NCBI GenBank assembly: GCA_030068145.1
Contig: JAPJBO010000172.1
Span: 62,001 to 126,000, forward strand
Direction of reading: 5' to 3'
Source of the DNA: Diplonema papillatum
Lineage: Eukaryota; Euglenozoa; Diplonemea; Diplonemida; Diplonemidae
DNA: 64,000 nucleotides
The position numbers and the translations under genes were made by a program. How positions within the stretch are numbered: position 1 is the stretch's first letter; every line of letters starts with the position of its first letter. Shown in pieces: positions 3,222 through 60,770 of this stretch. The notes below the pieces were generated by a model. The model ran no database searches. It worked only from the letters and a program-made list of their open reading frames with translations, and was not told the DNA's origin.

Positions 3222-3280
3222 GTGGCCTAGAAAGCCGGTGTTTTAAAAGTCTCCGGTTGACTGTAGGAGTTTTGTGGGAG
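3222..3280 (+). repeat. Copy of the GTCTCCGGTTGAC dispersed motif
   Basis: ATTTGTGG..TAGAAAG-CCGGTGTTTTAAAAGTCTCCGG is followed by TTGACTGTAGGAG. It aligns along its whole length with the copies at 4246-4306, 10629-10690, 36225-36275 and 58125-58180. Confidence 0.65.
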
Positions 3281-3778
3281 GAAGGTGTTGAGCTACAGGC
3301 AGTATTTAGGAATAAAGCGAATCAGTTCCAAGAGTCATTGGTTTCCCGTGCCGGGGGTTGTGAGCGATAGACGAAACTTGTGTAAGCTGGTTTGTCGTTT
3401 TTGGGCTGTACCCCGGACCGGGCCTTCCGCATAACCGCGCTATCGATGGTCACACGGCAGTACTAGGATTTCTGATCACCCACCAAACCGAGCGACCCTC
3501 ATACTTTCCTTTTCGAATACGTTGCATGTGCAAACCAAAGGAGAACTGCGCCACCGGAGGAGGGGCAAGGCTCAAGTTGAACGAACCCTGAAACAAAAAG
3601 TATGCACACAATAGTCTCCTCCTTCCTTGTTGTGCTTTTATGGCTCCGGTCACCGTGAAAAGGATAGGTAGAGACCGACTGCAATTGATCTTCGTGTGTT
3701 TGTCACGCTTGCATTTCGCAGCAAGAGCGTGAGCGGGGGAAGATAGTCCTCTGCAGGTGTATGGTAGTCGGTTAATTG

Positions 3779-11218: not shown

Positions 11219-11220
11219 TT

Positions 11221-11474
11221 CGGCAAATGGGTTTCTATTTTAGAGTTATAGTTCGGCAAATGGGTTTCTATTTTAGAGTTATAGTTCGGCAAATGGGTTT
11301 CTATTTTAGAGTTATAGTTCGGCAAATGGGTTTCTATTTTAGAGTTATAGTTCGGCAAATGGGTTTCTATTTTAGAGTTATAGTTCGGCAAATGGGTTTC
11401 TATTTTAGAGTTATAGTTCGGCAAATGGGTTTCTATTTTAGAGTTATAGTTCGGCAAATGGGTTTCTATTTTGA
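11221..11474 (+). repeat. 33 bp minisatellite, 7 full copies plus a partial eighth
   Basis: The unit starts CGGCAAATGGGTTTCTATTT and ends TAGAGTTATAGTT. It starts at 11221 and repeats every 33 bp, with the last start at 11452. The copies are identical to the eye. Single diverged copies of the same words occur elsewhere (TTCGGCAAATGG at about 12160, TTCTGCAAGTGGG at about 23681, TAGAGTTATAGTTCGCTTG at about 56946). So the array arose inside a copy of the dispersed motif. Because 33 is a multiple of 3, frames stay open through it on both strands. Those frames are not genes. Confidence 0.95.
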
Positions 11475-12640
11475 AAGATCCGTGCGGTTTTTTTTTTGTT
11501 GCGAGCGTCATGTAAGTTTTCCTGTGCGACCGTTGCTGTTTCCCGCCATTCAATGATTGTACTATTTTAGAACACGAACACATTTGTTGATCATCACCAA
11601 GTTGTGTATACTCAAGGGTATGCTTATAAATAGAGTGAAGCAGGGTGCGCCCATTGAAGTGCTCGTTGTATTCCAAGTAAAGGTTCGCTTGAGACTCCGG
11701 GTTTGTGGACCACCGTCTTGTTGAGTGGAAGTCTTTGGAACTTGTTTTGAAACAAATTCTTACGTTTTCATTTCGCAAGGACCGTACAAATGAGGAAAGG
11801 AACTAAAGAATTGTGAGTTACCTTCGTGTAGAATGTATTAGAACACAGTGAGCAATGGGAAAAGACGTCGGACAAAGAGGGAACCTTCACATTCCAGGGG
11901 TCCGAGATCCCTCCAGAATAGACCTCTCGTCTAGGATTTAGAGCATCCAAATGACTCCGTTTTAGTTCTGCTCCATATTAGTAGGAGTGGGGACAAATGT
12001 TTAAAAGCTAAAGTCAGCTCGGAACTACGGAACGCCGATTGACTTTCGCTGTAGTGTGATCTCGTTTCTAGTGACTTTAGAGAGTAGAAGTTCGCTTGTA
12101 CGCGTTGATAAAGAATTCTTGAGGTTTACAAGACAATTTGTTCATAAAGGAGTGACCTTCGGCAAATGGATATCGTATAACGTAGAAGGTCGTGTTGAAA
12201 AGCCTTCGGTTGACCGTAGAGGTTTGAGGTGTGAGAGGTTAGGGAGGGAAAAGAAGAAAAGGGTCCTCGTATTCGCAACGCGTTGAGACACAAGCAGAGA
12301 GAGCGTCGGTGAGCACCTTTGTTGGCAATCGTTTGCTCATACCCACGCTATTCACGAGATCCACGTACCTTACATACGGCAGGCCCTCTTCGTTTTAAAG
12401 CCTTCGGTAGGTGACTAACGGCGAGATAATTCTTCAGAATGATAGTTCGTTTGAAACATCGTTTCATGTGCACTGCGCTTGTGTTCTAGAGCATGCGGTA
12501 CGAACAGGGGTTTAGAGTTAAAGATCGCTTGATCGGTTTTTTAAAGTCCGGATCACTTTAAATAGCTTTTTTAAAGTGAACCTCGCGTGTACGCTTTATC
12601 ACTATTATCATTCTTCTTTTTTAGAGTGAATTTTTTTTGG
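11475..12640. other. Gene-free stretch with diverged dispersed-motif copies
   Basis: Diverged motif copies lie near 12056-12232 (ending CTTCGGTTGACCGTAGAGG) and 12514-12610. No reading frame worth calling. Confidence 0.4.
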
Positions 12641-16071: not shown

Positions 16072-18159
16072 TCACGCGCTGGCAGAGTACATGACCTGTG
16101 GAGTGTATCCGAGGGAGGAGTAAGGGTCGTATCTCCACGAGTTCTTGGCCTGCACGGCAGGGGCCTCTACCGGCCACGGCTGCGACGTGGGCTCCGGGTA
16201 CGGGTACGCCGCATAGGTCTCAGAAGGCATTCTGGGCGGCATGGCGGGCACGTATGGCGCGGAGCTTGTGCTCGAGAAGCTGAGGCCGTTGGTGATGGTG
16301 GGGTCCGAGCTCGAGTCTGAGTACCCGGAGCCGACGCGGGGCGGCTTCACGGGCGCGTAGCCCGCAGCGGGGTCCGCACAGAACGGGCGGGTCGATTCGA
16401 CGGGAGTGTACAGGTTGTAGCCGTAGGCGTCGCGCGCCGCCGGCGCGGCGGCCGGCTGGGGGTGGCCGCGGGGCGCCGCCGGCTGCGGTGCGTACACATC
16501 CCTAGGGGCCTGCGGGGCTGCCTTGTGGAAGCCGGATGGGTCGCTGCGCGTGGCGTTGATGACGACGGGGAAGTGGTTCTTCGCCGAAAACGTGGCCACG
16601 TCGGCCTTCGGCGCGGCCTGCTGCTGGGGGCTGCCGCTGGGGGTGACGTTCTTCGCGTCCTTGTCCTTCGACTTGTCCTTCTTGTTCTTCGCGTTCTTCT
16701 TGTTCTTGGTCTGCTTCGCCGAGTCCTTCGATGCTGCCCCCGACGAACGGCGGCTGCTGCGCTGCGACGACGTCACCGACGAGCTCGATGACTTCGAGGA
16801 CGCGTCCAACGGTACGGGCGCAGGCTTCGGAGCAACAGCCTGGTCTTGCTGCTGCTGGGGCTGGGGCTGGGGCTTGCCGCGCTTCTTGCCCTGGCTGAGC
16901 ATGAGGAGGCAGTTCTGGATCCGGGCCTGCTCGGCGGCTTCGAGCTCCTGCTGCTGCTTGCGCATCTCTTCGTCGTCAAGCCCGGACGAGTTCAATGCCT
17001 CGTTGCCGGTCTTCAGGAACACGTCGGGCAATTCGTGGTGCGGGAATCGTTCGCCCGAGGCGAGCCCGATTCTGGTCGGCTGGTCCGGGTCTGACATCCA
17101 CACGAAGGTCCCGCTGTGTCTCGCCAAAAACCGCATCAGCAGCGAGAACGTCGGCTGCAGAGACTCGGTGAAGCCCTTGCAGTCGCGCAGCTTGGCCAGC
17201 AGATCAACCTGCGACACCTCTCCTTTGCCGAGGGCCTTGACCAAGAACTTCTTGAACTCGTCTTCGGACCGCTTCTGCGCGTGGCATCGCTCACGGTCGA
17301 TCTCGTAGATCTCGTCTCTCTTCTTGCCCTTCAAGTAGATGCGGGCGTCGCACTTCTTGATGTGAGGCCCGAGGCCTTGCTCCTTGATCAGCGCTTCCGA
17401 GTAGTAAAACACCTCGAACGCATTGCTGTGCTTCTTCACGAAGTCCAACCACGAGTTGTTGTAGTTCTTGCCGACGACCTTGTCGTACAAGACGGACTCT
17501 TTCGCCTTGTTGTTCAGCAGGACGGAGCTGAGGGAGCCGCCGTCTCTGTTGAGGCGCGGGTTGAGGAGGACTGTTCGCACTTCGTTGACGAGTTGTTCTT
17601 CTTGAGGTGAGGCTGCGTTGGGGTTCGCGACGACGTGAGAGATAGTGACCGTGTAGTGGCTTGGTTGGGCATTCAGGTAGCAGCCAACGTGGGCGTTCTG
17701 TCCGGGGGCCTTCACGGTGCCAAGGTTGACTTTGACCTCACGTGGTGGGTCCGCGCATTGCACGGCATGCAAGGTTGCTCGCCACTCGCCTTCACTCCGT
17801 TTGTGAGGGTGTGTGGGTGCTGCCTTCGATGCCATGAACAGGATGTCGAGACCGAGGCCTCCCCGCTCTTCGGAGACGTTCACGTCCTCAGCCTCCGCGG
17901 TGACGGCGATAGTGCCGCCCGCCTCTGGCAGAGGGCACTTGATCAGCTGGATTCCATTGAGCAGGACCGTACCATGCCCGGCACTCATGTTGATCGGCTT
18001 CTTGCACGAGACCCCCCCGAGCTCCTTGACGGCTTGACAGCACGGTTCACTTCCGTGATCAGTGTCTGTGTAGCCGACGCTTCCTCCTGTCGTCGAAGTC
18101 ACGGAACACGCGTCGTTGTACACATCGCGGTTGCGCGCGAACGGCAAGGGGATGCTCAT
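16072..18159 (-). CDS. Uncharacterised 695-residue protein with two alpha-helical modules and a low-complexity C-terminus
   Basis: This is a single uninterrupted frame with strong GC-rich codon bias. Residues about 60-185 look beta-rich (alternating short hydrophobic segments such as GTVLLNGIQLIKC). Residues about 185-285 and 300-370 form two modules of similar plan: a helix (EEQLVNEVRTVLL; EDEFKKFLVKAL), a linker, a helix with an aromatic patch (SWLDFVKKHSNAFEVFYY; FSLLMRFLARHSGTFVWM) and a basic or turn segment. This could be a tandem winged-helix-like or LOTUS-like arrangement, but that is only a guess from the pattern. Residues about 400-425 are a charged coiled-coil-like helix. The remainder is low complexity: poly-Gln, Ser-rich, a Lys/Asp-rich block near 480-505 that could be a nuclear signal, then Pro/Ala/Tyr-rich sequence. 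The start is the first Met of the frame. No signal peptide or membrane segment. I do not recognise a named family. Confidence 0.8.
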   Translation of the reverse strand: MSIPLPFARNRDVYNDACSVTSTTGGSVGYTDTDHGSEPCCQAVKELGGVSCKKPINMSAGHGTVLLNGIQLIKCPLPEAGGTIAVTAEAEDVNVSEERGGLGLDILFMASKAAPTHPHKRSEGEWRATLHAVQCADPPREVKVNLGTVKAPGQNAHVGCYLNAQPSHYTVTISHVVANPNAASPQEEQLVNEVRTVLLNPRLNRDGGSLSSVLLNNKAKESVLYDKVVGKNYNNSWLDFVKKHSNAFEVFYYSEALIKEQGLGPHIKKCDARIYLKGKKRDEIYEIDRERCHAQKRSEDEFKKFLVKALGKGEVSQVDLLAKLRDCKGFTESLQPTFSLLMRFLARHSGTFVWMSDPDQPTRIGLASGERFPHHELPDVFLKTGNEALNSSGLDDEEMRKQQQELEAAEQARIQNCLLMLSQGKKRGKPQPQPQQQQDQAVAPKPAPVPLDASSKSSSSSVTSSQRSSRRSSGAASKDSAKQTKNKKNAKNKKDKSKDKDAKNVTPSGSPQQQAAPKADVATFSAKNHFPVVINATRSDPSGFHKAAPQAPRDVYAPQPAAPRGHPQPAAAPAARDAYGYNLYTPVESTRPFCADPAAGYAPVKPPRVGSGYSDSSSDPTITNGLSFSSTSSAPYVPAMPPRMPSETYAAYPYPEPTSQPWPVEAPAVQAKNSWRYDPYSSLGYTPQVMYSASA

Positions 18160-37529: not shown

Positions 37530-40500
37530 CTAGAGCTCGAAGGTCTCGGTGTGAAGCGGCAGCCGGAGCGGCGAGCGGCGGACTGCGTCTGACGCACCGA
37601 CGATCATGCCTGACGGCCCGCAGATTGCCACGGCTGAGTGCTCGGTGGCGTTTTTGACGAGCAGGGCTGTGTAGTCGGGTCTGCCGCGCACGATCGCGAT
37701 CCTCTCCGTTTCAAACTTGACGTCGTCGAGCCCCGCCCCGGTGAACGAAACGATCACCTTGAGGCCCTTGAACCGGGCAGCAAGCTCGTGGAGATCGTCC
37801 ATGAGCATCTGCACCAGCTCCGCATCTCTGACGCTCCAACTAAGCGTTGCCTCCTGCGCCACGTCCATGTACCGAATGACGCTGAGCATCGGCGTGACCC
37901 CGATACCTCCCGCAATGAGGATGAGGTTGTTGTGCTTGTCGATGTCGAAGGACAGCTTGCCGTACGGTCCTTCGAGCTTCGCTTGGAGCTCTATCTTTGG
38001 CTCGCTGGGCAGTTGGGTGAGTCGCTCCGTCCACGTGCCGGGACCCATGTTCTTCACGTAGAATGTCGCGGTTTTAGTCGAGTGGTGCGAGGTGACCGAC
38101 AACGGGTGGTACTCCATGTAACCAGCCTGCGGGATAGACACGCAGAAGTAGCTACCAGGGCCCCATTTCTTGATCGGCTTGGGCGGAACGATCGTCAGCT
38201 TGGTCACGCTGCCAACGTTTGTGTGTTGGAGGATGTACGAGTTGTGAACACTGAGGTATACACGGTACAGGCAATCCAAAACGTACAGGAGAACGGGCAA
38301 GCCGAAGATGGCGTACGTTCGCCAGCCATCGGGCAGGTGCAGAATGGTGAAAACCAGCGTGCAAAGGCTCAGCACGACGTGCGACGCCACGAAGGCTTGG
38401 TAGAAAATGCGGCGGATGGCCGGCAGCCCAAGCAGGACGAGGACAGTGTACAGCACCCACGCGATGATCCCGTAGAGCGGTCGCACTTTTCCGGCGCCAT
38501 CCGTGGTCCCTCCGGTTCCGAGTTCGGTGTGCAGCAGCACGCTAGCGTCCCCGTCGTTGTTCTCACGGTACTCCGCAATCACCAACGAGCCGTGCAGCGT
38601 CACGAACAGCCACCCCATCCTCCCGATCCAACGATGCCACACGAGCGCGCGCTCCTGCGGCACGGACATCAAGAACAGGCACGGGGAGAACATTTTGACC
38701 TTCACCAGCAACGTCAACGCCAAGCAAATCTGCGCGGGCCCCCCGAAAAGCACGCCGTACTCCACGATTCTCCCCCTGTAGTGCTCGTAGTCGCCGATCG
38801 ACATGGTCACCAGTGAGCACATGATGAACACCATCGACAGCACGCTGCCCACGGCACTCTGCTGGAAGAAATACCCGAACCTCGGCTTGACCATGATCAT
38901 GATCCCGGAGACGAGGCCAAGCACGGTCAGGAGGAAGAGGGAGATGAGGATGTGGATCCAGACGGTGTCGTCGTCGCTGGTCACTTCCGCGGTTCCTGTC
39001 AGGGCGTTGATGGCCGCAGTGCCTTCGGCGGCGTGCTTCGTCGTGGGCGTCGAAACCGCGGAGGCCGGCCCGTTCGCGAAGATGAAGTCGATGTTTTCGG
39101 ATGCGATGGCGCGGTCCTTGTCGTCGCCCGTGTCCAACAACCGCGAAACCTTCACCGTGAACCAGCCGTCCCCGAGAACCTGCGTCTCCTCCACCACCAA
39201 GTCCTGCGACGCATCCTCCGGGCACGTGGCGCGGCTGGTGCAGTACCAATCGACGCAGCGAATCCCGTCCGCATGCTCCCAGCAGACGAACGCGTCCGAT
39301 TGGAGCATCGTGCCGTCGTCGCTGAGGCCGAGCGCACAGTACTGTCCGACCCGGCACACAAACGTCAGGAGCACGTGCGTGTACGGAAAGTTGGCGTCGG
39401 CCAACGCAACCGAGCTCCTCTGTTTCCCGCTCAGATCCCTGCGTCGCAGCTCGACGGACGCGGAAAAGTCGTCGGTGAGGCGGTGCAGCGAGGCCCCGGG
39501 TACTGGCGTCGTCGGCGGCGGAATCGGCGTCGCCGGGACCACCGTGTCGACGGCTGACTTGTCCGCCCACGCCAGGCGCGTCATGCCGCGGCCCCCACCC
39601 TCGTGCTCGATGAACTCGCCGTCTGCGTGTTGGCCTTGGGCCCAGATCACCGCCTGCGGCTCGGCGCCTTCGGCGACGTCCAAGACCCTGTCATCAGCCC
39701 CGTCCGCCGTTGCGACCGGGCGGCTGAACACGACCCACCACGCCGCCCCCACGACCGCGTGTTCCAAAACGGTCAAATCCTGGCTGGCATCTGCCAGCGG
39801 CGCGACGAGTTCATCCCGCACGTGGCTGTCCGTGCAGGTGGCAGCGCCGTCCCGCGCGAAGCACATGAACACGTCACTGTTGACCATCTCCTCTCCCAAC
39901 CCGAACGAGCAGTACATTTCGGTAGAAGGACACGTCAAGTTGAACGTGACGACGTCCTCAGCGTCGGACACGCTCCATCGGAGCACCATGCCTTCCGCGA
40001 ACGTCTTCGTGGCGCCCGTTTCCTGCTTCTCTCCGCCCCACGCGACAGCCAGGCTTCCCTTGGACCGGCGGCTGTGTTCCTGGGGGATCCCGTTGCTGTC
40101 CATGTCTCCGAAGGCCCAAATCATCTGCTGCTGCTCTCCGTCGATGATGAACGGCTTGTCGCCGGGGTCACTCGACACAACGAGCCGCTTCAACAGCACG
40201 CTCCACGCACCCGTGGCCGCAATGTCGAAGGCAAGAACGTCGTAGTCCTGCTGTTGGTCGGCTGCGGGGGCGTCGTGGCCCACGACAGACCCGTCGGTGC
40301 ACTGCACGGCGGCATTCGCCACCCAGCACAGCACCGTGTCCGCGTCTGCCATGTCCTGCCCAAGGCCGAAGGAACAGTACTGCTCGGAGGTGGGGCACGT
40401 CAGGTTGATTGCGATCACCGACTGCTCCGCCATCACTTCCCAGTACAAATCCATCCCCTCGGCCAGCGCGACGTGCGAAGGGTTCGTCAAACGCAGCAGT

Positions 40501-43500
40501 CCCCACGCAATGTTCACTGCGCCGCGGGTTGACCTCGCGTGCTGTTGCACACCGTCACTGTACTTGCCGAAAGCCCAAATCACAGCTTGCTCTTGACCGT
40601 CGACCACAAAAGCCTTGTCCGTTGGATCACTGCTGTGCACGGGCCGCGTCAGCAGGACGCTCCAAGCTCCGTTGGCGGAAACTTCTGACGTGATGAAAGT
40701 GTAGTCTTGCTGATCGTCAGCGACTGGAGCTGCGTGGCCGGAGACTGATCCGTCGAAGCAAACAGCAGCGCCGCCGTCCACTCTGCAAAGGACGGTGTCA
40801 GCGTCGTCCATAGATTGTCCGAGACCGAAAGCGCAGTACTGCTCAGTGGACGGGCACGTCATGTTGATCGCAATAAGCGTTTCGTCCTCCATGACCTGCC
40901 AGTACAGGTGCACGTCGGCGGCAAGCTCGATGTGCCGCGGGTTGTCCAGAATTAAAGGCTTCCACGCGATGCCGATTTTACCTCGGGTAGACCTCTTGTG
41001 CTTTATGAACGGCTTGTCGGCTGTAGCGTTGTATGTCCCGTAGGCCCAGATGGCCGGCTGTAGCTGGCCGTTGACGACGAAAGCCTTGTCGGTTGCGTCG
41101 CTGCTGTTCACCGACCTGGTGAAGAAGACACTCCAGGTTCCGTTGGGAGACACCTCAGACGCGATCACGACGTGGTCTTGCTGGTCGTCAACTGCAGGAG
41201 CCGCGTGGCCGGAAACCGAGCCGTCCGAGCAAACCGCGGCAACGTCGCCCATCCAGCAATGAATGGTGTCGGCGTCGTCCATGTCTTCTCCGAGACCAAT
41301 GGCGCAATACTGCTCGACGGATGGGCAAGTCATGTTGATGGCGATGAGCGCATCGTCGTCCATCAGCTGCCAGGAGAGGTGCATGTCGGTAGCAACCTCC
41401 AAGTGCACAGGGTCGGTCAGGGCCATGTACTTCCACGCAATGCTGGTGGCGCCGCGGGTTGACCTCTTGTGCTTGCTGAACGAAGCGTCATCTGCATTGT
41501 ACGTCCCGTAGGCCCAGATGATCGGTTGCTGCTGACCATCGACGATAAACGCCATGTCCGTCGCGTCGCCGCTTTGAACTGCCCTCGTAAGCAGAACGCT
41601 CCAAGAGTCCTCAGAAATCTCAGACTTAATCAGGACGTAGTCTTGCTGGTCGTCAGCAACGGGTTCTTCGTGCCCGGAGACGGATCCGTCTGAGCAGATA
41701 ACGCCGGTAGCGCCTACCCAGCACAGGAGGGTGTCAGCGTCGTCCATGTCTTCTCCGAGACCGATGGCGCAGTACTGCTCGGTGGAAGGGCACGTCAACT
41801 TGATAGCGACAGTCGCGTCGTCGTCCAAGAGTTCCCAGTACAGGTCCATCCCAGTTGCCAGCTCGACGCGGTGGGGGTTGCTCAATGACAACGGCTTCCA
41901 CGCGACTGCCGCTTGCCCGCGGGTCGACCTCTTGTGCTTGCTGTAGGTTCCGTTGCTGTAGGCCCCGTAGGCCCAGATGATCGGCTGCTTCTGGCCGTCG
42001 ACTACGACGAATGCCTTGTCGGCAGCGTCGCTGCTGACGACCGGGCGCGTGAGCAACACACTCCACGTGCCGTTGGGCGTAATTTCCGAGGAAATGACGG
42101 TGTAGTCCTGCTGATCGTCCGCCGCCGGGGCTGCGTGGCCGGTTACGAAACCGTCTGAACAGCTAGCCACTGGGCCATCAACCCAGCACAGAACGGTGTC
42201 AGCGTCGTCCATGTCCTCTCCCAGCCCAATAGCGCAGTAACCTTCCGTAGACGGGCACGTCATGTTGATCACCATCAGCGAATCACCGTCCATGAGCTGC
42301 CAGAACAAATCCATTCCGTCCGCAAGCTCGATCTGCTGAGCATCGTCGAGTGCCAGCGACTTCCACGCGATGTCGAGGACCCCGCGCGCCGATGTGCCTC
42401 GTGAATGCCGTGCAAAGATGCCGCCGCTGTAGCTGCCGACGGCGTAGATGACGGACTGAGTCAAACCGGTAACGGTGAAGGTTTTGTCGGTCGGGTCGCT
42501 GCTTCGGACCGCCCGTGCGAACAGCACGCTCCAGCTGCCGTCCGCCAAAACTTCGAACGCAACGACGATGACGTTCTGCTCACTGTCGGCTTCCGGTTCG
42601 TCGTGGCCTGACACAGATCCATCCGAGCAGAACACCTGCGAGTCCTGTACCCAGCACAAAGTGGTGTCAGCGTCGTCCATGTCTTCTCCGAGGCCAATCG
42701 CGCAGTACAGCTCGTCTGAAGGACACGACATGTTGATCGCAACAATTGTATTCTCTTCCAAGAGCTCCCAGTACAAAGTCATGCCAGTGGCGGCCTGCAT
42801 ATGTTGCGGGTTCGTAAGCGACAAACGCTTCCAAGCGATGGCGGTTTGCCCACGCGTCGACCGTTTATGCCGGCTGAACGTTGCGTTGTTGTATGTCCCG
42901 TGGGCCCAGATGATGGGTTGCTTCTGGCCGTCTACGAGGAATGCTTTGTCCGTTGTGTCACTGCTCCGCACCTCCCTCGTGAACAAAACGCTCCAGCTAC
43001 CGTCAGACTGCATAGCCGACGAGACGACGATGAAGTCTTGCTGATCGTCAGTGACAGGTTCGTGATGACCGGACACAGACCCGTCCTTGCAAGACACGGC
43101 AGTATCGTCCGCCCAGCAGAGGACCGTGTCGGCATCGTCCATGCTTTCGCCAAGACCGAAAGAACAGTACTTTTCGGTATCGGCGGCAGGGCACGTCATG
43201 TTGAACGCGATCACCGTCCCGCCTTCGATAATCTGCCAGTACAGGTCCATCCCCGTGGCCAACTCGACGTGCTGCGGGTCTACGAGGGTCAGCGGCTTCC
43301 AAGCGATGCCGCTGGCGCCGCGTGTCGACCGTTTGTGCCTTCCGAACGAACCGGCGCCGTAGCTTCCGAAGGCCCAAATGAATGGCTGCGTCCGCCCGTC
43401 GACGACGAACGCTTTGTCCCCCGCATCGCTGCTGTTGACAGCCCTTGTGAACAACACGCTCCACGTGCCATCCGCTGACACCTGCGACGTGACGATGGAC

Positions 43501-46500
43501 ACGTCTTGCTGTGCATCCGCGGTTGGCTTGTCGTGACCCGTCACGAAGCCGTCTGAACAGTTGGCGGTGTTGTCATCGAGCCAGCAGAGGATGGTGTCCG
43601 CGTCGTCCATGTCTTCTCCGAGGCCGATCGCGCAGTATTGCTCGGTGGACGGGCACGTCATCTCGATCGCGATGAAGGAGTCTTCCTCGAACAGCTGCCA
43701 CGAGAGGCCCATCCCGCCGGCGAGCCCAACGTGGTGCGGGTCTGACAGGAACAGCCGCCTCCAAGCGACGTCCACGGCACCCCGCGTGTCCCTCTCGTGC
43801 CGGCTGAAGCTGCCGTTGACGTTAGGCCCGTGCGCCCAGATGACGGGCTGCTTCCCGCTGTCGACGACGAACGGCTTGTCCGCCGCGTCGCCCGTGTCGA
43901 CGGCCCTCGCCAGGAACACGCTCCACGAGTCGTCCACGGCGACCTCGTACGCCAGGACCACGTAGTCCTGCTGCGCATCGGCGGCGGGCGCGCGATGGCG
44001 CGAAACCGTGCCATCCGAGCACTTGACGGCGTCGTCCGCCACCCAGCAAATGACGGTGTCGGCGTCGGACATGTCCTTGCCGAGGCCGATGGCACAGTAG
44101 CTGTCAGTCGACGGGCACGTCATGTTGATCGCGATGAGCGAGTAGTCGTCGAAAAGCTCCCACTGCAGGTCCATGCCGGCGGCCAGGTCCAGGTGCTGCG
44201 GGTCCGCCAAAGAAATCGGCTTCCACGCCAGCGCCAGGCCGCCACGAGTGTCCCGCCGGTGCTTCGAGGGTGTGCCGTCGGTGTGGTTGCCGTAGGCCCA
44301 GATCATCCCCTGCTGCTGTCCGTTCGTGACGAATTGCTTGTCGGACGGATCCGAGGTGTTGACGGCGCGCGTGAAAACGACACTCCACGAGTCGTCGGAC
44401 TCAACGGTCGACGTGATGACTACCAAATCCTGCTGTTCGTCCGCCAGTGGCGCCCGATGCCCTGTCACAGCGCCGTCAATGCACGCGACTTCAGTGCCGT
44501 TAACCCAGCACAGCATCGTGTCTGCATCATCCATGTCGTGACCCAGACCAATAGCACAAAAGTATTGCGCGGAAGGGCACGACAAGTTCACGATGATGGA
44601 CGTCGACTGGTCACGAAGCTGCCAGTACAGGTCCATACCCTGGGCGAGCTCGATGTGGTGGGGGTTGAGCAGAAGCAGAGGCCGCCACGTGACCGATGTG
44701 ACGCCTCGGGTCGACCTGCGGTGCTTGGAGTACGTTCCGTTGTTGTACCCGCCGCTAGCGAATATCACGCTTTGCGCCTGGCCGTTCACGGTGAGCGCAA
44801 CGTCGCTAGCGTCGCCCGTGGCGACCGCGCGGGTGAACAGCACGCTCCACGACCCATCCGCGTTGATTTCACTGTGCAAAACCGTGCAGTCCTGCTGGTC
44901 GTCAGCGGTCGGGCTTTCGTGGTCGTTGACCCAGCCGTCCTGGCACTCGACTCCGACAAACTCATCTGCAACCCAGCAGGTAATCACGTCGGACCCGTAC
45001 ATGTCAACGCCAAGGCCGATCGCGCAGTACTTCTCGGCAGATGGGCACGTCATGTTCACGGCGATCCAACTGTCTTCCCCGCTGCCGTCGTGCAGCACCC
45101 ACGAGATGGTCATCCCGTCGAACAACTCTTGGGACAGCTCGTCCACCAGCTGCATCGGGTCCCAGGCCACCGCTGACATCCCCCGAGTCGACCTCGCGTG
45201 GCGGGAAACCTTCCCATCCTCGCCGATCCCGCCGAAGGCCCATATAATGGGCTGCGCAACTCCCGGGCGTGTCTCGAAGGCCGCATCCTTCAAGCTGTCG
45301 GCAGTGGTCGTTTTCCGGGTGAAAAACACCGACCAGCCGCCGTCGGCCGAGGCCCAAGAAATGACAACGACGTCCTGCGACGCATCCGGCGTCGGCTCCG
45401 TGTGTCCATTCACGAATCCGTCCTTACAGAACGCTTCCTCCGTGCTTTCATTGAACCAGCAGAGCACGGTGTCCGCCCCGTACATATCGTCTCCCAGACC
45501 CATCGCGCAGTAACTCGACGTCGACGGACATGACATGTCAACGGCGATCAACTGTTTCTCCTCCATCAACTCCCAAGTCAGTACCATGCCGTCTGCCGAC
45601 AGCTCGTGCCTGGATGGGTGCTCGAATGCGATCAGGTGCCAGTAAACAGTCGAAGACCCGTCGGCGAACAAGTATTCCTTCGCGGCGTCGTTCGCTCCGG
45701 TGGCCCAAACGATGGACTGCGACTGGCCGTTGACGGTGACCGTGGTGTCGTTTCCGTCGCCGGTGTGCACGGGCTTCGTGAACAAAACGCTCCAGCTGCC
45801 GTCCGGTTGCAATTCGTGCAGGATCACCGCCACGTCTTGCTGCCCGTCTGCAACAGAGATTTGAAGGCCCGCGGCGATGTGGCCGTCCTCACAGACTGCT
45901 TCCATCGAGGCAGTCATCCAGCACAAGACGGTGTCCACGCCAGCGGCCTCTTCGCCGATCCCGAGCCCGCACCAGTTGTCCAGCGATGGGCACGTGAGGT
46001 TCACCGCGACGAAGGACCTGCCCTCCTTCAACTCCCATCGCAGGTCGATCCCTTCCCCCAGCGCTTCGTGCTGCGGGTCGTCCAAGTGCACCCGCGACCA
46101 CGCAATCGCGGCGAATCCGCGATCGCTGCTGCCGTGGCGGGAGAGAGAGCCGTCGGAGACGGACCCGTTGGCCCAAATGATGGCCTGCGGCGTGGCGTCG
46201 ATGGTGAACTGCTTGTCGGCCGGGTCCGCGGACGCCACGCGCCTTGTGAACACGACGCTCCACGTGCCGTTGCCGTTCGTGACGCTGGAGATGATCGTCA
46301 AATCTTGCTGGGCATCTGCCGCCGGCGCGCGGTGGCGGGTGACGTGTCCGTCGGAGCACGTGACGCTCTCAGCGCCCAGCGGCTTCCAACACGTCATCGT
46401 GTCGGCATCTGACATGTCCTCTCCCAGACCGATCGCGCAGTATTCAGAGCCGCAGGTCATGTTGATGGCAATCACAGTTCGGTCCTCGATCAGCTCCCAT

Positions 46501-47531
46501 TCTAACTCCATCGTCTCGTGGAACGCGTGGCGCAACTGTCTGTCGAATGCAAACGGCCGCCACACGACGTCGAGCTCCCCTGTTTCTGCCGTTGACATGT
46601 TCTGGAACACAACCCCGCCAGCGTCCGCTGTGACTGTTCCGATAGCCCACGTCACTCTCTGCTCAGCTCCGTTGACAAAGAACCCGACGTCTTCGTCATC
46701 GGCAGTGGAAACGAACCGGCGATACAGCACACTCCAGCTCCCATCCTCAGCCACGGCATGCGCGATCACAGTAACGTCGCTGGTGCCATCCGGAGCCGGG
46801 ACGCCGGTCGCGTTGGCCACGCCGTCCACGCACAGCGCAGCGCCGTCTTCCAAATAGCACAGCAAAACGTCAGTGAAACCTTCACCCTCCAAGCCCACGG
46901 CGCAGTAGACCTCCGCACGCGGGCAGGTCACGTTGACGAGCATCACCGACGCGTCGACCCTTACTTCCCAAGCCACAGCCATGCCGACGCCGCTTTCGAA
47001 TTCGCGCGGCTCTGCTTCAAAGGCCATGGGGCGCCACACAACCTTCTCGATGCCTCTGTCACTGCGGCCGTGCTTCGAAAAACTGCCGGTGCTGTCGAGG
47101 TCTCCGACTGCCCAAATGATGCTCTGAGGCAGTCCGTTCAGGTTGAACTTTTGGTCCCCTGCCACGTCTTCTGTGTCCACAGCCCGTTTGAAGACTACGC
47201 TCCACGAGCCGTCAACGTTGAAGGACTCAACAGCAACGTCGCCTTGGACATCCTGTGCTGGTACACGATGGCCGGTCACACTCCCATCGTAGCATACGAC
47301 GGTGCCATTAGCTTCCACGACAGAGCACAGCACTGTGTCAGCCTCGCTCATGCTCTCCCCGAGCCCGACCGAGCAGTACTGCGTGGTCGACGGGCACGTC
47401 ATGTTGATCACGACGACTGTGTCATTCTCTTCTAACTTCCAGTACAAATCCATCCCGTCGTCATGCAAATGCACATTGCCAGCCGCAGCAGTGGCTGCCG
47501 CGCAGGCTAAAAGTAAAAAATGGAGGGTCAT
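37530..47531 (-). CDS. Giant secreted/membrane protein: eighteen DOMON domains fused to a ferric reductase (NOX/FRE-type) core, 3,333 residues
   Basis: Residues 1-18 are a signal peptide (hydrophobic LLLACAAATAAA). Residues about 20-2850 are eighteen DOMON domains, spaced 150-160 residues. Met in the GLGxxM motif falls at 61, 373, 683, 844, 1000, 1154, 1308, 1464, 1618, 1774, 1929, 2084, 2241, 2394, 2549 and 2742. A His about 93 residues later sits in an SKHxRSTRG motif. Domains 2 and 4 lack both. From V2857 a multi-pass membrane region carries H2966/H2980 and H3051/H3065, each pair spaced H-x13-H, the haem-binding pattern of ferric reductases and NADPH oxidases. Then come the FAD motif HPLS at H3142, the NAD(P)H motif GGIGVTP at 3208-3214 and CGP at 3304. 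Known for the families: such cores carry electrons from cytosolic NAD(P)H through FAD and two haems to the outside, and some DOMON domains bind b-haem by Met and His. Inferred: the DOMON array is an extracellular haem chain receiving these electrons, perhaps for metal reduction. There is no cytochrome b561 domain, the usual DOMON partner. No intron, frameshift or stop is seen. The start is the first Met and gives the signal peptide. Confidence 0.93.
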   Translation of the reverse strand: MTLHFLLLACAAATAAAGNVHLHDDGMDLYWKLEENDTVVVINMTCPSTTQYCSVGLGESMSEADTVLCSVVEANGTVVCYDGSVTGHRVPAQDVQGDVAVESFNVDGSWSVVFKRAVDTEDVAGDQKFNLNGLPQSIIWAVGDLDSTGSFSKHGRSDRGIEKVVWRPMAFEAEPREFESGVGMAVAWEVRVDASVMLVNVTCPRAEVYCAVGLEGEGFTDVLLCYLEDGAALCVDGVANATGVPAPDGTSDVTVIAHAVAEDGSWSVLYRRFVSTADDEDVGFFVNGAEQRVTWAIGTVTADAGGVVFQNMSTAETGELDVVWRPFAFDRQLRHAFHETMELEWELIEDRTVIAINMTCGSEYCAIGLGEDMSDADTMTCWKPLGAESVTCSDGHVTRHRAPAADAQQDLTIISSVTNGNGTWSVVFTRRVASADPADKQFTIDATPQAIIWANGSVSDGSLSRHGSSDRGFAAIAWSRVHLDDPQHEALGEGIDLRWELKEGRSFVAVNLTCPSLDNWCGLGIGEEAAGVDTVLCWMTASMEAVCEDGHIAAGLQISVADGQQDVAVILHELQPDGSWSVLFTKPVHTGDGNDTTVTVNGQSQSIVWATGANDAAKEYLFADGSSTVYWHLIAFEHPSRHELSADGMVLTWELMEEKQLIAVDMSCPSTSSYCAMGLGDDMYGADTVLCWFNESTEEAFCKDGFVNGHTEPTPDASQDVVVISWASADGGWSVFFTRKTTTADSLKDAAFETRPGVAQPIIWAFGGIGEDGKVSRHARSTRGMSAVAWDPMQLVDELSQELFDGMTISWVLHDGSGEDSWIAVNMTCPSAEKYCAIGLGVDMYGSDVITCWVADEFVGVECQDGWVNDHESPTADDQQDCTVLHSEINADGSWSVLFTRAVATGDASDVALTVNGQAQSVIFASGGYNNGTYSKHRRSTRGVTSVTWRPLLLLNPHHIELAQGMDLYWQLRDQSTSIIVNLSCPSAQYFCAIGLGHDMDDADTMLCWVNGTEVACIDGAVTGHRAPLADEQQDLVVITSTVESDDSWSVVFTRAVNTSDPSDKQFVTNGQQQGMIWAYGNHTDGTPSKHRRDTRGGLALAWKPISLADPQHLDLAAGMDLQWELFDDYSLIAINMTCPSTDSYCAIGLGKDMSDADTVICWVADDAVKCSDGTVSRHRAPAADAQQDYVVLAYEVAVDDSWSVFLARAVDTGDAADKPFVVDSGKQPVIWAHGPNVNGSFSRHERDTRGAVDVAWRRLFLSDPHHVGLAGGMGLSWQLFEEDSFIAIEMTCPSTEQYCAIGLGEDMDDADTILCWLDDNTANCSDGFVTGHDKPTADAQQDVSIVTSQVSADGTWSVLFTRAVNSSDAGDKAFVVDGRTQPFIWAFGSYGAGSFGRHKRSTRGASGIAWKPLTLVDPQHVELATGMDLYWQIIEGGTVIAFNMTCPAADTEKYCSFGLGESMDDADTVLCWADDTAVSCKDGSVSGHHEPVTDDQQDFIVVSSAMQSDGSWSVLFTREVRSSDTTDKAFLVDGQKQPIIWAHGTYNNATFSRHKRSTRGQTAIAWKRLSLTNPQHMQAATGMTLYWELLEENTIVAINMSCPSDELYCAIGLGEDMDDADTTLCWVQDSQVFCSDGSVSGHDEPEADSEQNVIVVAFEVLADGSWSVLFARAVRSSDPTDKTFTVTGLTQSVIYAVGSYSGGIFARHSRGTSARGVLDIAWKSLALDDAQQIELADGMDLFWQLMDGDSLMVINMTCPSTEGYCAIGLGEDMDDADTVLCWVDGPVASCSDGFVTGHAAPAADDQQDYTVISSEITPNGTWSVLLTRPVVSSDAADKAFVVVDGQKQPIIWAYGAYSNGTYSKHKRSTRGQAAVAWKPLSLSNPHRVELATGMDLYWELLDDDATVAIKLTCPSTEQYCAIGLGEDMDDADTLLCWVGATGVICSDGSVSGHEEPVADDQQDYVLIKSEISEDSWSVLLTRAVQSGDATDMAFIVDGQQQPIIWAYGTYNADDASFSKHKRSTRGATSIAWKYMALTDPVHLEVATDMHLSWQLMDDDALIAINMTCPSVEQYCAIGLGEDMDDADTIHCWMGDVAAVCSDGSVSGHAAPAVDDQQDHVVIASEVSPNGTWSVFFTRSVNSSDATDKAFVVNGQLQPAIWAYGTYNATADKPFIKHKRSTRGKIGIAWKPLILDNPRHIELAADVHLYWQVMEDETLIAINMTCPSTEQYCAFGLGQSMDDADTVLCRVDGGAAVCFDGSVSGHAAPVADDQQDYTFITSEVSANGAWSVLLTRPVHSSDPTDKAFVVDGQEQAVIWAFGKYSDGVQQHARSTRGAVNIAWGLLRLTNPSHVALAEGMDLYWEVMAEQSVIAINLTCPTSEQYCSFGLGQDMADADTVLCWVANAAVQCTDGSVVGHDAPAADQQQDYDVLAFDIAATGAWSVLLKRLVVSSDPGDKPFIIDGEQQQMIWAFGDMDSNGIPQEHSRRSKGSLAVAWGGEKQETGATKTFAEGMVLRWSVSDAEDVVTFNLTCPSTEMYCSFGLGEEMVNSDVFMCFARDGAATCTDSHVRDELVAPLADASQDLTVLEHAVVGAAWWVVFSRPVATADGADDRVLDVAEGAEPQAVIWAQGQHADGEFIEHEGGGRGMTRLAWADKSAVDTVVPATPIPPPTTPVPGASLHRLTDDFSASVELRRRDLSGKQRSSVALADANFPYTHVLLTFVCRVGQYCALGLSDDGTMLQSDAFVCWEHADGIRCVDWYCTSRATCPEDASQDLVVEETQVLGDGWFTVKVSRLLDTGDDKDRAIASENIDFIFANGPASAVSTPTTKHAAEGTAAINALTGTAEVTSDDDTVWIHILISLFLLTVLGLVSGIMIMVKPRFGYFFQQSAVGSVLSMVFIMCSLVTMSIGDYEHYRGRIVEYGVLFGGPAQICLALTLLVKVKMFSPCLFLMSVPQERALVWHRWIGRMGWLFVTLHGSLVIAEYRENNDGDASVLLHTELGTGGTTDGAGKVRPLYGIIAWVLYTVLVLLGLPAIRRIFYQAFVASHVVLSLCTLVFTILHLPDGWRTYAIFGLPVLLYVLDCLYRVYLSVHNSYILQHTNVGSVTKLTIVPPKPIKKWGPGSYFCVSIPQAGYMEYHPLSVTSHHSTKTATFYVKNMGPGTWTERLTQLPSEPKIELQAKLEGPYGKLSFDIDKHNNLILIAGGIGVTPMLSVIRYMDVAQEATLSWSVRDAELVQMLMDDLHELAARFKGLKVIVSFTGAGLDDVKFETERIAIVRGRPDYTALLVKNATEHSAVAICGPSGMIVGASDAVRRSPLRLPLHTETFEL
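38980..47480 (-). repeat. Coding tandem array: eighteen DOMON repeats of about 465 bp
   Basis: Each unit encodes WxL/V...NxTCPS...YCxxGLGxxMxDADTxxC...DGxVxGHxxPxxDxQQD...SWSVxFTRxVxxxDxxDKxF...Q..IWAxG......H.RSTRG...AW. Units 7 to 16 are the most alike and keep long stretches of near-identical DNA (for example GTCGTCCATGTCTTCTCCGA on the plus strand). That suggests recent unequal crossing-over or gene conversion in the middle. The outer units (1, 2, 4, 17, 18) are the most diverged. Confidence 0.9.
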
Positions 47532-47800
47532 CGCCGACCAGCTCCGACGGTTGCTTGCTTTAGCTTTTGTGGTGCGGTGTTCAACAAAAGCGCGGTTTGC
47601 TTTTACCTGCGGGGTGAAGGGGGTAAAGGGAGTGGACCTCTACTTCGGCATCATTTTCATCTGAACTTCTGCGTTTTCGTTTGAACGGAACTAGCGAATT
47701 CCTCTTTTGCGGCACTAATTGCGGACACAAATGTACTGCACGGCAGTCAAGTTTCACGTGTTCGGCGGACCGTACAGCTACGTGAGCCGGCCCATCTCTC
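47532..47800. other. 5' flank of the giant DOMON gene
   Basis: Would hold its promoter and 5' untranslated region. I see no TATA box or initiator that I can assign with confidence. Confidence 0.3.
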
Positions 47801-47803
47801 ACC

Positions 47804-48010
47804 TGATAGACCATGGTGTACCGTGAGTGGTCAGAATGCAGAATATCTGTAGCGATGGCTTGTATTTGTCACCAGGTGATAATGCAGGCCACCGTGATTG
47901 ACAGCTTTAAGCAATTCCACGAAACTCTAAGGAATAGGGATGGACCTGATAGACCATGGTGGACCGTGGCACCATCAGACGCCGCGATTGACCAAAGTGA
48001 GCTGTACCTC
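47804..48010 (+). repeat. Repeat with CCTGATAGACCATGGTG words, related to 62.69-62.90 kb
   Basis: CACCTGATAGACCATGGTG occurs at 47804 and GACCTGATAGACCATGGTGG at 47943, a local duplication about 139 bp apart. In reverse complement, 62690-62895 has GACCTGATAGACCGTGGTGG and further GATAGACCGTGATAGACCG words. The family is short and of unknown type. Confidence 0.65.
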
Positions 48011-49266
48011 ACACTGGGGGAATTTGTGCACAGAGGAGGTGCAGAATAGCACGTTTAACCCAACTGGAATGGACCCCAATCAGGTAGTGGGGTTTCCTAG
48101 CGAACCGTTGGAAGAACTTCCCTTTCGCGGGCTCCCTGTCCACAACGATGCCAATGGTTGCTTTGTTTGTACGCGCTAGTGGAACTCACCTGCTTTGGTC
48201 AGTTTCATGCCAAAATAGCCCGAGCGGCGGGGCCAACGGAAGAAGCCGAAGACGGCCACGTTCGATGTGTGCGTCAAAGAAAACCCTGCAGGCAAGCAGA
48301 TAACAGAAGCCGTCCGACCGCCTCAGGCACACCATCCCGTGCCTTTCGCAAGTTGTAACGAGCGTAACGTGCCAGAGAACACAAGGGGCCAGGTCTGGTC
48401 CCACCAAGGACAGTGCGGTGCAGGCTTTGCTTTTACGGCTTGAGGGGGGTGTTGGTATAGTCCACCACGCAGCCGTCCTCCTCGTATTGAGATCAGTTTC
48501 CAATGTGCAGTGGGGCGTCCCCAGCAACAACTCCCTTGCGCGTGACTCTCTACTGGTCGCAGCAACACAGTTGGACAATGCGCAAGCCTTCTTGCAGCGA
48601 AACCAGATGCTGAGCTCGTGTCTTCCAAAATAAACCGCTAAAACAGGAAAACGGGAGAAAGGGGAAGTTTATGCCGGGCATAGATCACGTCAACAACTCT
48701 TCCCGACGCCCGCAAACAACATGGGAGGAAAGAAAGGGACCCTGTGGGTGTGCACGGCCAATGACGTCTTCGTTTTTGACGCTGGCGCAGTGCGAGAGGA
48801 ACGAGAGAGAGAGCGAGAGAGAGAGAGAGAGCGAAACGTCGCTAGACGCGCCACAGGGAAGATGTCGGTAACAAGAGAGCCGCGAGTTATAGAGGATACC
48901 GGCATTCACGGCGGAGAGCCCTCGCGCCAATTTATTGAACAAGCGCCAGCTTTACGCATGTTCCAAACAACAAAGGAGCGCTGTAGCCCCACACGAAACA
49001 CATGAGGTTTCGTGCCGCGGTGTTACGCCCGGTGCGAACTTGTGTTTTGTGGGCTACAGACACATTTCCTCCTTTGAGATTTGGGACTCTTGCTGTGTTC
49101 GTGGGGAGTCATCGGCATGCTGACGAGTCACTTTGGCGCGTTTTCGTCGTGGTGCAACTCGTGATGGTTCCTATTGTTGCGGACAGATAGTGACTCGAGT
49201 GTAATGCTGCGACCCCCCTCCGAGAGGCGGCGCTTCGGTAATTTCGAGACGCGCGGGACACTTCTT
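48011..49266. other. Gene-free stretch with a GA microsatellite
   Basis: A (GA)n run lies at about 48803-48831. 48995-49085 is a diverged part-copy of the 31.1 kb repeat family (TGTGTTTTGTGGGCTACAGA, CATTTCCTCCTTTGAGAT). No gene seen. Confidence 0.4.
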
Positions 49267-49579
49267 CTGCGGGGGTACTCTCTCGGTCAAGAAATGGCCG
49301 GAATCGATAGTGCCGAGCATCAAGGCACGAAAGCAGATCCTTTCTGAAACAGGGTTTTGTCAGACCGCTGAGAGAGGTCACATCAATATTCCCCGCGGGC
49401 CGGAGGAACAAGAAAAAGCTCACTCCGGACTCCGGGGCTTCAGCGTGCCGTTCAACCGCAGCATGCAAAAGCTTAGTGTCACAACCCCATCCGCTATGCC
49501 CCTGATTGACCGTGTCTACGGGCTCGTGTCAGAAGCTCCAAGGTACATCTTCAGATGCTTTGGTTTGGGAAGTCGGTAG
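49267..49579 (+). pseudogene. Degenerate Gypsy-type reverse transcriptase fragment
   Basis: The frame reads GFSVPFNRSMQKLSVTT, PSAMPLIDRVYGLVSEA, then PRYIFRCFGLGSR. This matches the order RFCVDYRxLNxVTxxDxYPLPxIDxxLDxLxGAxYFSxLDLxSGY typical of Ty3/Gypsy reverse transcriptase. Just upstream, another frame gives FPAGRRNKKKLTPDSG, like the SSPVVLVxKKDGS segment, so at least one frameshift is present. The catalytic YxDD segment is not found. It is a short, dead relic. Confidence 0.55.
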
Positions 49580-50700
49580 GCCTCTGCAGCACCGCAGAAC
49601 ACGTGTCGTCTTTCCCGGGATTTCACATGTGTAGCTTCCGCGATCAGCTCAAGCTGTCGTGAACGAACCTCGAAGCGCACTGACAAGGCCGACTCACTGG
49701 AACCAACTGTCCTGCACTGCTTCGAACTAACAGCCGGGCTCTAAACCTGCAAAAAAGAAGGAGAGGTAGGAGTCCCAACTTTGTATCGAGAACCGAGAGG
49801 AATACGCAAAAGGAAGAAAACGTATACACGCGCCCTGGCTGACCCTTGTAGATATCGACTTTTTTGGTTGTTTTCCCCTCTTTTTTCGGAGGGGGTTTGT
49901 TTTCGAAAAAGCATTCCCCTTTTCCGGCTAAAGAAATCTTCAAGGACGTTCGAGGCTACACCCAGTCCGGGTCAGATTGCTTCCTTGGCGGAAGCAGCGC
50001 TTGTGTGGAACCCAGCCCATTTTTTTGGCGCGATTGACTTGTGTTGGGAACACTTCTGGAGACGGGGTCTTGCACTGGTGAACGGCAGCGGACATTCAGC
50101 ATCAACCGAACAATAGCAACAAAACGATGAGGTAATGGATGCTTCTTCCCGCAGCCTGCAAGCCTCTCGGTTGTCCTGCGCTAGCACTGTATTCGATTGG
50201 TTCTCGTGTTTAACCTTCAGGCGTGCAGCCGTTGTTCCGAAAATGCTCCCTTCGGTGCAGTACATAAAGCTTACGAACCTCATTTTTTACGCAATCCATG
50301 AGGAATTTCGGCAGGTCTGCAATAATACTAATTGTCGAATTGCCAATGCAGCCGGAGACAGCAGACGCGGTCGGTTTGCTTAGCTTTTCGTGTACTGGCA
50401 ATCCCGACTGCCAATCTCAAGTCACTAAAGTCTTTGGTCGCTTCACCTGTCAGTCTCACATCCTGCAGTGTTTCCGACCCCAAAAAATGATGGCGAAGTC
50501 CCCAAAATATATAAATCCCTGGAAAACGGCAATGGTGAGTTCACCATCAGTTTAGTTCGTGGCCAATTACCCTCTTCCCACCTGAGCCTCAGCTGCCGCG
50601 AAATCCCCCTGCCCGCAAGGGGAAATCTTGGCCTGATACTTAGGATAGAACACTGCTCTCATGCATGGGAGGGGGGTGTGATTGGGGATGAACTACACGG
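49580..50700. other. Gene-free stretch
   Basis: No coding frame recognised. Near 50648-50675 ACACTGCTCTCATGCATGGG resembles the AGGCAGNACACTGCCTCTCATGCATG unit. Confidence 0.4.
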
Positions 50701-60014: not shown

Positions 60015-60770
60015 GGGAAATCTTACTTGAATGTTGAGGCAGAAGAATGCCGCTCATGCATGATTGATGCTAGCATCAAGTCTTCAGGGGGGGGAGCTGG
60101 GGGGGAAATCTTAGTTTACACGGTGAACCCCAGCAACTACTGCTCGAGTGAAACCGGACTCTCCAAAAGCTGCACACCCTATTTCCGGGTGTGGTCACAC
60201 CCACACTTGAGGTCGGACTTTAGCTCGAGCAAATGTTGCCGGAGTTCACCGTGCAATAGAATGTGCACACCCTATTTCCGGGTGTGGTCACACCCACACT
60301 TGAGGCCGGACTTTAGCTCGAGCAAATGTTTCCGGAGTTCACCGTGCAATAGAATGTGCACACCCTATTTCCGGGTGTGGTCACACCCACACTTGAGGCC
60401 GGACTTTAGCTCGAGCAAATGTTGCCGGAGTTCACCGTGCAATAGACTGTGCACACCCTATTTCCGGGTGTGGTCACACCCGCACTTGAGGCCGGACTTT
60501 AGCTCGAGCAAATGTTTCCGGAGTTCACCGTGCAATAGAATGTGCACACCCTATTTCCGGGTGTGGTCACACCCACACTTGAGGCCGGACTTTAGCTCGA
60601 GCAAATGTTGCCGGAGTTCACCGTGCAATAGAATGTGCACACCCTATTTCCGGGTGTGGTCACACCTGCACTTGAGGCCGGACTTTAGCTCGAGCAAAGG
60701 TTGCTGGAGTTCACCGTGTAATGTTTAGGCAGGACATTGTCTTCCATGCATGTTTCGAGACTGGAGGTCC
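60015..60770 (+). repeat. Two tandem copies of the hairpin unit, the second split by a MITE
   Basis: 60015-60100 is one unit (AAATCTTACTTGAATGTTGA, GGCAG..., GATGCTAGCATCAAGTCTTC). A second begins GGAAATCTTAGTTTA at 60104 and is cut at 60118. It resumes with TAATGTTTAGGCAGGACATT at 60719 and runs to CATGCATG. Confidence 0.8.
60119..60718. mobile_element. Expanded 600 bp MITE, same family as 28303-28418, with TA target duplication
   Basis: The left end CACGGTGAACCCCAGCAACT and right end GCTGGAGTTCACCGTG are inverted repeats. TA at 60117-60118 and TA at 60719-60720 flank it. Joining the flanks restores CTTAGTTTAATGTTTAGG, which is the intact sequence at 55.0 and 61.9 kb, so the filled and empty sites agree exactly. 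The interior is an array of 93 bp units (starts at 60171, 60264, 60357 and on, six in all). Each ends in its own copy of the right end (GTTCACCGTG), followed by CAATAGAMTG. Each unit also holds a GGGTGTGGTCACACCC palindrome. Because 93 is a multiple of 3 the array gives a long open frame, but nothing suggests a gene. Confidence 0.9.

Follow-up and report, generated by a model that had tools for sequence, protein, structure and literature searches.

An array of eighteen DOMON domains joined to a ferric-reductase-type core in a single frame of Diplonema papillatum

Introduction

What might a membrane reductase gain from eighteen DOMON domains carried on its own chain? The question is raised by a locus of the diplonemid Diplonema papillatum, a unicellular marine flagellate. 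At this locus, one open reading frame (ORF) joins eighteen DOMON domains to a membrane core of the ferric-reductase (FRE) or NADPH oxidase (NOX) kind and to FAD- and NAD(P)H-binding domains. The frame lies in bases 62001-126000 of contig C172 of the 271-Mb assembly, and this whole stretch of 64,000 nucleotides is here called the window. Bacteria and archaea are known to export electrons along haem wires, which they build from c-type cytochromes. With moderate confidence, we read the protein encoded in the window as a giant among diplonemid FRE-type reductases, a family of plasma-membrane enzymes driven by NAD(P)H, in which a DOMON haem array outside the cell would pass electrons to an acceptor.

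One frame for the array and the reductase

The frame is open for 3333 codons from its ATG and for 3369 codons from stop to stop (Table 1). The Pfam search of its product returned 18 DOMON stretches with a total E value of 2.2e-285, followed by Ferric_reduct (residues 2933-3061), FAD_binding_8 (3112-3192), and NAD_binding_6/1 (within 3200-3313), every match being above its cut-off. This bears out the preliminary description of the locus as one frame with 18 DOMON domains, an FRE core, and FAD and NAD(P)H domains, and the two H-x13-H pairs and the HPLS, GGIGVTP, and CGP motifs that it had listed were all found in place. The 18 units, each of about 155 residues, stand in tandem ahead of the membrane core. 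Sixteen of the 17 gaps between the unit hits measure 17 to 23 residues, and the gap before the membrane-proximal unit, U18, measures 58 residues and holds a Thr/Pro-rich stretch. The array is strongly acidic (417 Asp and Glu versus 165 Lys and Arg) and could attract metal cations.

The structural model of the tail, which is a weak one (mean pLDDT, 68), has seven long helices in the core. Hydropathy flags six of these seven and misses the His-bearing helix 2966-2980; it also flags residues 1654-1673 and 3203-3222, both of which lie outside the membrane core. Because the number of helices is odd, the array would be located outside the cell if the flavin domain is cytosolic. This placement agrees with the excess of N-glycosylation sequons in the ectodomain (35, compared with a mean of 10.5 and a maximum of 19 in 500 shuffles) and with its richness in cysteine (75 Cys in 2862 ectodomain residues versus 3 in 248 cytosolic residues).

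The protein search retrieved a deposited product of the same gene, P0002, entitled "Ferric reduction oxidase 4 [Diplonema papillatum]" (3022 aa, 16 units), which is identical to the window protein save for one 311-residue gap equal to two units; C172 and the contig of P0002 both comprise 309816 bases. The 933 nt that are absent from P0002 can be placed in 47 equivalent ways (upper end, 42662 to 42708), 31 of which fall within one identical stretch, and none of the 47 has a GT-AG or GC-AG junction. According to PMC10161547, the introns of D. papillatum are GT-AG with a few GC-AG and none that are unconventional, and spurious introns occur at repeats. A true intron was considered for the 933-nt gap and is unlikely on both of these grounds. 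The DNA agrees with the earlier claim that the gene is intron-free, and we take the gap to be a gene-model artefact, with an allele that is truly shorter or a transcript assembly as less likely sources of P0002.

Pairwise DNA identity between units does not exceed 71%, which is too low for the assembly to have collapsed or multiplied them. Each of the 18 units has the same four invariant cysteines, synonymous sites are near saturation (median pS, 0.66 for the unit pairs of U01-U17), and nonsynonymous divergence is low (pN of neighbouring units from U08 to U16, 0.20-0.30). For these reasons the array is more than a chance product, and to judge from these substitution patterns, it is old and has been maintained under purifying selection.

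Table 1. Coordinates of the gene, its parts, and the second giant frame (window positions unless a contig is named)
Feature	Position	Strand	Residues, motifs, or basis
Open frame, DOMON x18 - FRE/NOX core - FAD - NAD(P)H	37530..47531	-	3333 aa + stop
Putative signal peptide	47478..47531	-	Residues 1-18; read from sequence; resembles start of paralog P0003
DOMON U01, Met and His present	47016..47486	-	Pfam and ligand columns
DOMON U02, neither haem ligand	46551..47015	-	Ligand columns
DOMON U03, Met and His present	46083..46550	-	Ligand columns
DOMON U04, neither haem ligand	45621..46082	-	Ligand columns
DOMON U05-U18, 14 consecutive Met and His units	38982..45620	-	Ligand columns
U18, membrane-proximal DOMON	38982-39449	-	
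Two units (933 nt) absent from P0002	41760..42692	-	One of 47 equivalent placements
Membrane core	38247..38969	-	Residues 2855-3095; model helices, hydropathy, Pfam Ferric_reduct
First haem-histidine pair	38592..38636	-	H2966-x13-H2980
Second haem-histidine pair	38337..38381	-	H3051-x13-H3065
FAD-binding domain	37956..38198	-	Residues 3112-3192, HPLS at 3142; Pfam and motif
NAD(P)H-binding domain	37593..37934	-	Residues 3200-3313, GGIGVTP at 3208, CGP at 3304; Pfam and motif
Second giant frame, 16 DOMON units, NOX-type His at +4	C7:446070-455375	+	3102 aa; L031

Haem ligands of the DOMON units

Met and His both occupy the ligand columns of 16 of the 18 units, and by this column-based count, U02 and U04 have neither. 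Were the losses independent, the chance that both would strike the same two units would be 1 in 153, and a joint loss is what would be expected if the two residues function as a pair. In the DOMON domains that bind sugar, as well as in DBH, Met and His are not conserved (PMC10691727). Because of the ligand pairs in 16 units and because the fold of the unit model matches the cytochrome domains of CDH (1d7c and 4qi3), the assignment of the DOMON units to the haem-binding type is supported. There are no CxxCH motifs in the protein, and b-type, non-covalently bound haem is expected in the units.

The kinship to CDH draws on the Pfam CDH-cyt family and on the folds, since the PDB search with a profile of all 18 units matched DBH (E = 2e-5) and nitrite oxidoreductase subunit C (E = 0.036), with CDH not among its matches. 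The search with one unit gave DBH (E = 0.0078), CDH (E = 0.051), and a mycobacterial protein (E = 1.3). In the CDH match, the Met of U09 aligns with a Met of the CDH cytochrome 4qi3; the title of 1pl3, a further entry for a CDH cytochrome, names an "M65H mutant." Regarding the partner of this Met, the His of a GH-x-x-P loop was considered but is absent from U17 and U18, both of which have kept their Met as well as a C-terminal His, and we prefer the latter as the likelier axial ligand. By range ends only, the 4qi3 chain ends at residue 189 opposite model residue 307, which puts the His of U13 (residue 2021; model residue 293) 14 residues before the end and H176, named in PMC10784544, 13 residues before it.

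Up to sixteen DOMON haems had been proposed in the preliminary description. That figure stands as the number of units with both ligands, but the unbroken run from the membrane, from U18 to U05, counts only 14; because U02 and U04 lack both residues, a continuous wire starting at the membrane is limited to at most 14 DOMON haems.

Type of the membrane core

The four canonical haem histidines of the FRD superfamily are present in two helices, and FAD and NAD(P)H domains follow the core. Pfam identifies the core as Ferric_reduct, with no match to cytochrome b561, and no EF-hand was found among the Pfam matches of the window protein. The solved structures nearest to the core by sequence are DUOX1 (E = 1.4e-9) and a flavohaemoprotein (E = 1.5e-9), followed by NOX5 and NOX2, and those nearest by fold are NOX5 and DUOX1, over both the membrane and the flavin parts. 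Among the marks that separate NOX from FRE, one is an additional His that follows the second haem His of transmembrane helix 3 at a distance of four residues (NOX2 His-119), and another is a conserved Thr in transmembrane helix 4 (NOX2 Thr-178) (PMC3591440). The +4 position of the window protein is V2984, not His, and because the NOX-type His is absent, the sequence favours metal reduction for this protein.

A family of DOMON-bearing reductase frames

The genome search, whose counts of DOMON, Ferric_reduct, and b561 are lower bounds, gave at least 114 DOMON matches and at least 25 Ferric_reduct loci, and 19 of these 25 share an open frame with 1 to 18 DOMON units. Seventeen of the frames were read from genomic DNA, one was that of the window, and the nineteenth was taken from protein P0004. 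Six frames are located on C150 (7, 5, 4, 4, 4, and 4 units), four on C171 (10, 9, 8, and 3), four on C7 (16, 7, 3, and 1), two on C504 (3 and 3), and one each on C39 (2), C71 (1), and C172 (18). Six Ferric_reduct loci have no DOMON, and among these the pairs C359/C1812 and C2021/C225 score equally and may be duplicates.

Together, the 19 frames contain 112 units, of which 89 have Met with His at or near its column and 17 have Lys with His; another residue or a gap accompanies His in 3 units, Met occurs without His in 1, and 2 (U02 and U04 of the window) have neither. Apart from one in C171_1073, the Lys units are all distal units of six frames of C150 and C504 (16 units; L021, L022, L026-L028, and P0004). 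Ligation of haem by Lys is known in ethylbenzene dehydrogenase, and a Lys/His haem is possible in these units. All 19 frames have Met in the proximal unit; the His of this unit occupies the exact column in 17 frames and a nearby position in the remaining two. Because the proximal Met is kept throughout, electron transfer from the membrane haem to the DOMON haem next to it seems to be the common core of the mechanism, and the remainder of the array varies. Frame C171_1073 lacks HPxS, GGxGxTP, and one His pair and may be decayed, and C504_908 gave no GGxGxTP match.

The NOX-type His at +4 is absent from 15 of 15 frames outside C7, including that of the window, and is present in 4 of 4 frames of C7, which hints at a possible difference in function for the C7 group. 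This group includes a second giant (Table 1), whose internal units 2-13 (n = 12) are mostly 99 to 100% identical in DNA between neighbours, with 93.5% at the last. Its array is regarded as a recent expansion, and its copy number could be a matter of the assembly.

A tree of the 19 cores, with four outside sequences added, unites all four C7 genes in a single clade (100/100) and puts C71 and C171_1073 on long branches, where their placement is unsure. Arrays of at least seven units need 4 changes on this tree, gains and losses being counted alike, and at least 3 of them are forced by well-supported branches.

Further frames carry DOMON without a listed Ferric_reduct match; they were seen on C164, C175, C190, C241, C612, C947, C675, C6, C17, C58, C371, and C1485. 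Some of them exceed 1600 aa and occur in tandem copies (C164, C175, C190, C241, C612, and others). A motif scan of six stretches from such contigs was negative for L016, L017, L018, and L020; in frames of L019 and L023 it detected a single anchor apiece. The four b561 matches of the genome search sit on contigs with no listed DOMON match, and one of them (C141:125074-125370, minus strand) lies in a 3495-aa open frame.

Relation to known systems

A similar architecture is described by Zhang et al. (2013; PMC3591440) for the DOMON-bearing eFRE clade of Naegleria gruberi, Albugo (F0X089), and Phytophthora (D0MUZ3), in which one chain combines an extracellular N-terminal DOMON, a ferric-reductase core, and the domains for FAD and NAD(P)H. 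The likeness is drawn from the description in that paper, and the number of DOMON domains differs, being one or two in that clade and 18 here. The earlier claim that no FRE fusion on such a scale had been described therefore holds, as far as we have seen, for the scale and not for the kind: a fusion of FRE and DOMON was already known, and 18 more frames of this sort exist in the same genome.

Apart from proteins named as those of D. papillatum and P0005 (EukProt), whose C terminus matches the 1230-aa frame of C150, the protein searches gave only P0007, P0008, P0014, and P0015, whose listed Pfam domains do not include DOMON. These searches scored only the candidates that shared most words (2669, 7991, and 7992), and they are blind to distant relatives, since they did not retrieve the proteins that Zhang et al. 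described from Naegleria and oomycetes. In a limited literature search, neither "DOMON" nor "ferric" was found in the main text of the paper on the D. papillatum genome (PMC10161547) or of that on its metabolism (PMC8611851).

The paralogs within D. papillatum (P0003, P0004, P0006, and P0009-P0013, and the frames of C7, C150, C171, C504, C39, and C71) share the domain order and the proximal Met with the window protein and differ from it in having 1 to 16 units, in the Lys for Met of the distal C150 and C504 units, and in the NOX-type His of C7. The cytochrome domain of CDH (1d7c and 4qi3) has the fold predicted for the DOMON units, and CDH has a single such domain fused to a sugar-oxidising flavoprotein. 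Bacterial multihaem c-type wires are alike in possible role, with many haems in line outside the cell, but the window protein has no CxxCH, and its haem is expected to be of the b type.

The CYBDOM proteins, such as HYP1, also have a Met/His DOMON haem outboard of two membrane haems (PMC10784544). However, their core is an ascorbate-driven b561, and they usually have one DOMON; of 888 insect hits, 19 had two (PMC10691727). HYP1 reduces Fe(III) and Cu(II) in oocytes, and its DOMON b-haem was modelled at an Fe-Fe distance of 20.9 Å from the nearer membrane haem; the test of its DOMON ligands failed because the mutants were mislocalised (PMC10784544). HYP1 is the nearest tested analogue of the mechanism proposed below.

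Surroundings of the gene

The window holds 96 stop-to-stop ORFs of at least 120 aa, of which 25 overlap the gene. Thirty of the other 71 were scanned against Pfam, and one gave a match above the cut-off (SRP1_TIP1, 26.2 versus 25 bits; 11203-11802, minus strand), two gave matches below it, and 27 gave none. The SRP1_TIP1 stretch overlaps a 33-bp tandem repeat, which is perfect and spans 11219-11472 in 7.7 copies. A 93-bp repeat occurs at 60171-60722 (5.9 copies, 96%), and a 695-aa ORF with no Pfam match occupies a GC-rich island (63%) at 16072-18159 on the minus strand.

The 5' end of the gene and the region upstream of it (46375-49817) have a 99.3% copy about 99 kb away, from approximately position 207538 to at least 211000 of C172 (L033). 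The copy measures 3463 bp within the compared stretch, the end of which it reaches, and holds a 435-aa open frame. Repeated 5' parts of genes are described in PMC10161547, and the copy is similar to these, though it is not in tandem.

Proposed mechanism and alternatives

In the proposed mechanism, NAD(P)H in the cytosol would reduce FAD, and the electrons would cross the membrane via two b-haems held by H2966/H3051 and H2980/H3065. The b-haem of the proximal unit U18 would receive them next, and they could then travel over the b-haems of U17 to U05 to an acceptor outside the cell, for which Fe(III) or another metal is the likeliest candidate. The external haem-bearing surface would be multiplied and extended by such an array. 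By the ligand residues and the type of the core, the ectodomain probably carries up to 16 extra b-haems, and the function is probably metal reduction; we infer the occupancy of the haem sites, the direction of flow, hopping between units, and a metal as the acceptor. A wire is a possible reading of the array. Its boldest form, a eukaryotic haem wire in one polypeptide with up to 14 non-covalently bound b-haems in tandem beta-sandwich cytochromes over tens of nanometres, fed by cytosolic NAD(P)H through two membrane haems, serving distant or solid acceptors, and built at least twice (the 18-unit array of C172 and the 16-unit array of C7 with its NOX-marked core), is in our view rather unlikely.

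The rival explanations overlap in part with the proposed mechanism and with each other, and their odds do not sum to one. Somewhat stronger than the boldest wire, but still doubtful, is the explanation that only U18, perhaps with its neighbours, is catalytic and that the other units form a stalk, an adhesion or spacer module, or haem sites without electronic contact. Several features of the family weigh against electron transfer along the whole array and are in line with this explanation: the proximal Met is kept in all frames, while the distal units number 0 to 17 and many of them lack Met; the length of the array changes often; and the arrays of C7 and C171 are marked by long gaps between successive DOMON hits (in the two arrays measured, mostly 36 residues in one and 20-54 in the other). 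However, the 16 window units with both ligands have retained them despite near-saturation at synonymous sites, which a pure stalk would not need, and the gaps of the window array are short and even.

A haem-capture device, in which apo-DOMON units would take haem from outside and the reductase would aid its release or use, would fit the many haem-type sites on a single surface protein. No transporter domain was found among the 30 neighbouring ORFs scanned, however, and the b-haems of related cytochrome domains, those of CDH, serve electron transfer, which leaves this device with a very small probability. Marginally better placed, though still improbable, is a role as an electron donor to secreted oxidoreductases, including ones that attack polysaccharides: the units are similar to the cytochromes of CDH, which donate electrons to lytic polysaccharide monooxygenases. 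Nearly 500 CAZymes are reported for D. papillatum, but "lytic polysaccharide" and "monooxygenase" are absent from the main text of the same paper (PMC10161547). An NADPH oxidase making superoxide outside the cell, with the DOMON units as accessory haem domains, is as improbable as haem capture. The proximity of the core to DUOX1 by sequence and to NOX5 and DUOX1 by fold, together with the +4 His in all frames of the C7 clade, speaks for an oxidase, but the window protein and the 14 other frames outside C7 lack this His, which PMC3591440 counts among the marks dividing NOX from FRE, and the Pfam matches include no EF-hand. Hardly credible is an artefact, whether a mis-assembled repeat or two genes joined through a chance open frame. 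The deposited model of the locus is two units shorter, and part of the 5' end has its near-identical copy elsewhere on the contig; against this, 18 further frames join DOMON to a core, and P0002 itself spans both the array and the core. Separate genes for the array and the core were also considered and rejected in view of those 18 frames.

An NAD(P)H-driven FRE-type reductase with an external DOMON haem array is thus the reading that we prefer. Its family offers a natural series of 1, 2, 3, 4, 5, 7, 8, 9, 10, 16, and 18 units in which the role of an extra haem domain can be asked about, as well as two natural ligand variants, namely, Lys for Met in distal units and the loss of both ligands in U02 and U04. 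As D. papillatum is described as genetically tractable in the literature consulted, reductase activity, haem content, and array length would be directly testable. The family suggests that a eukaryote may have built long haem arrays by another route, from b-type DOMON units, and may have done so more than once.
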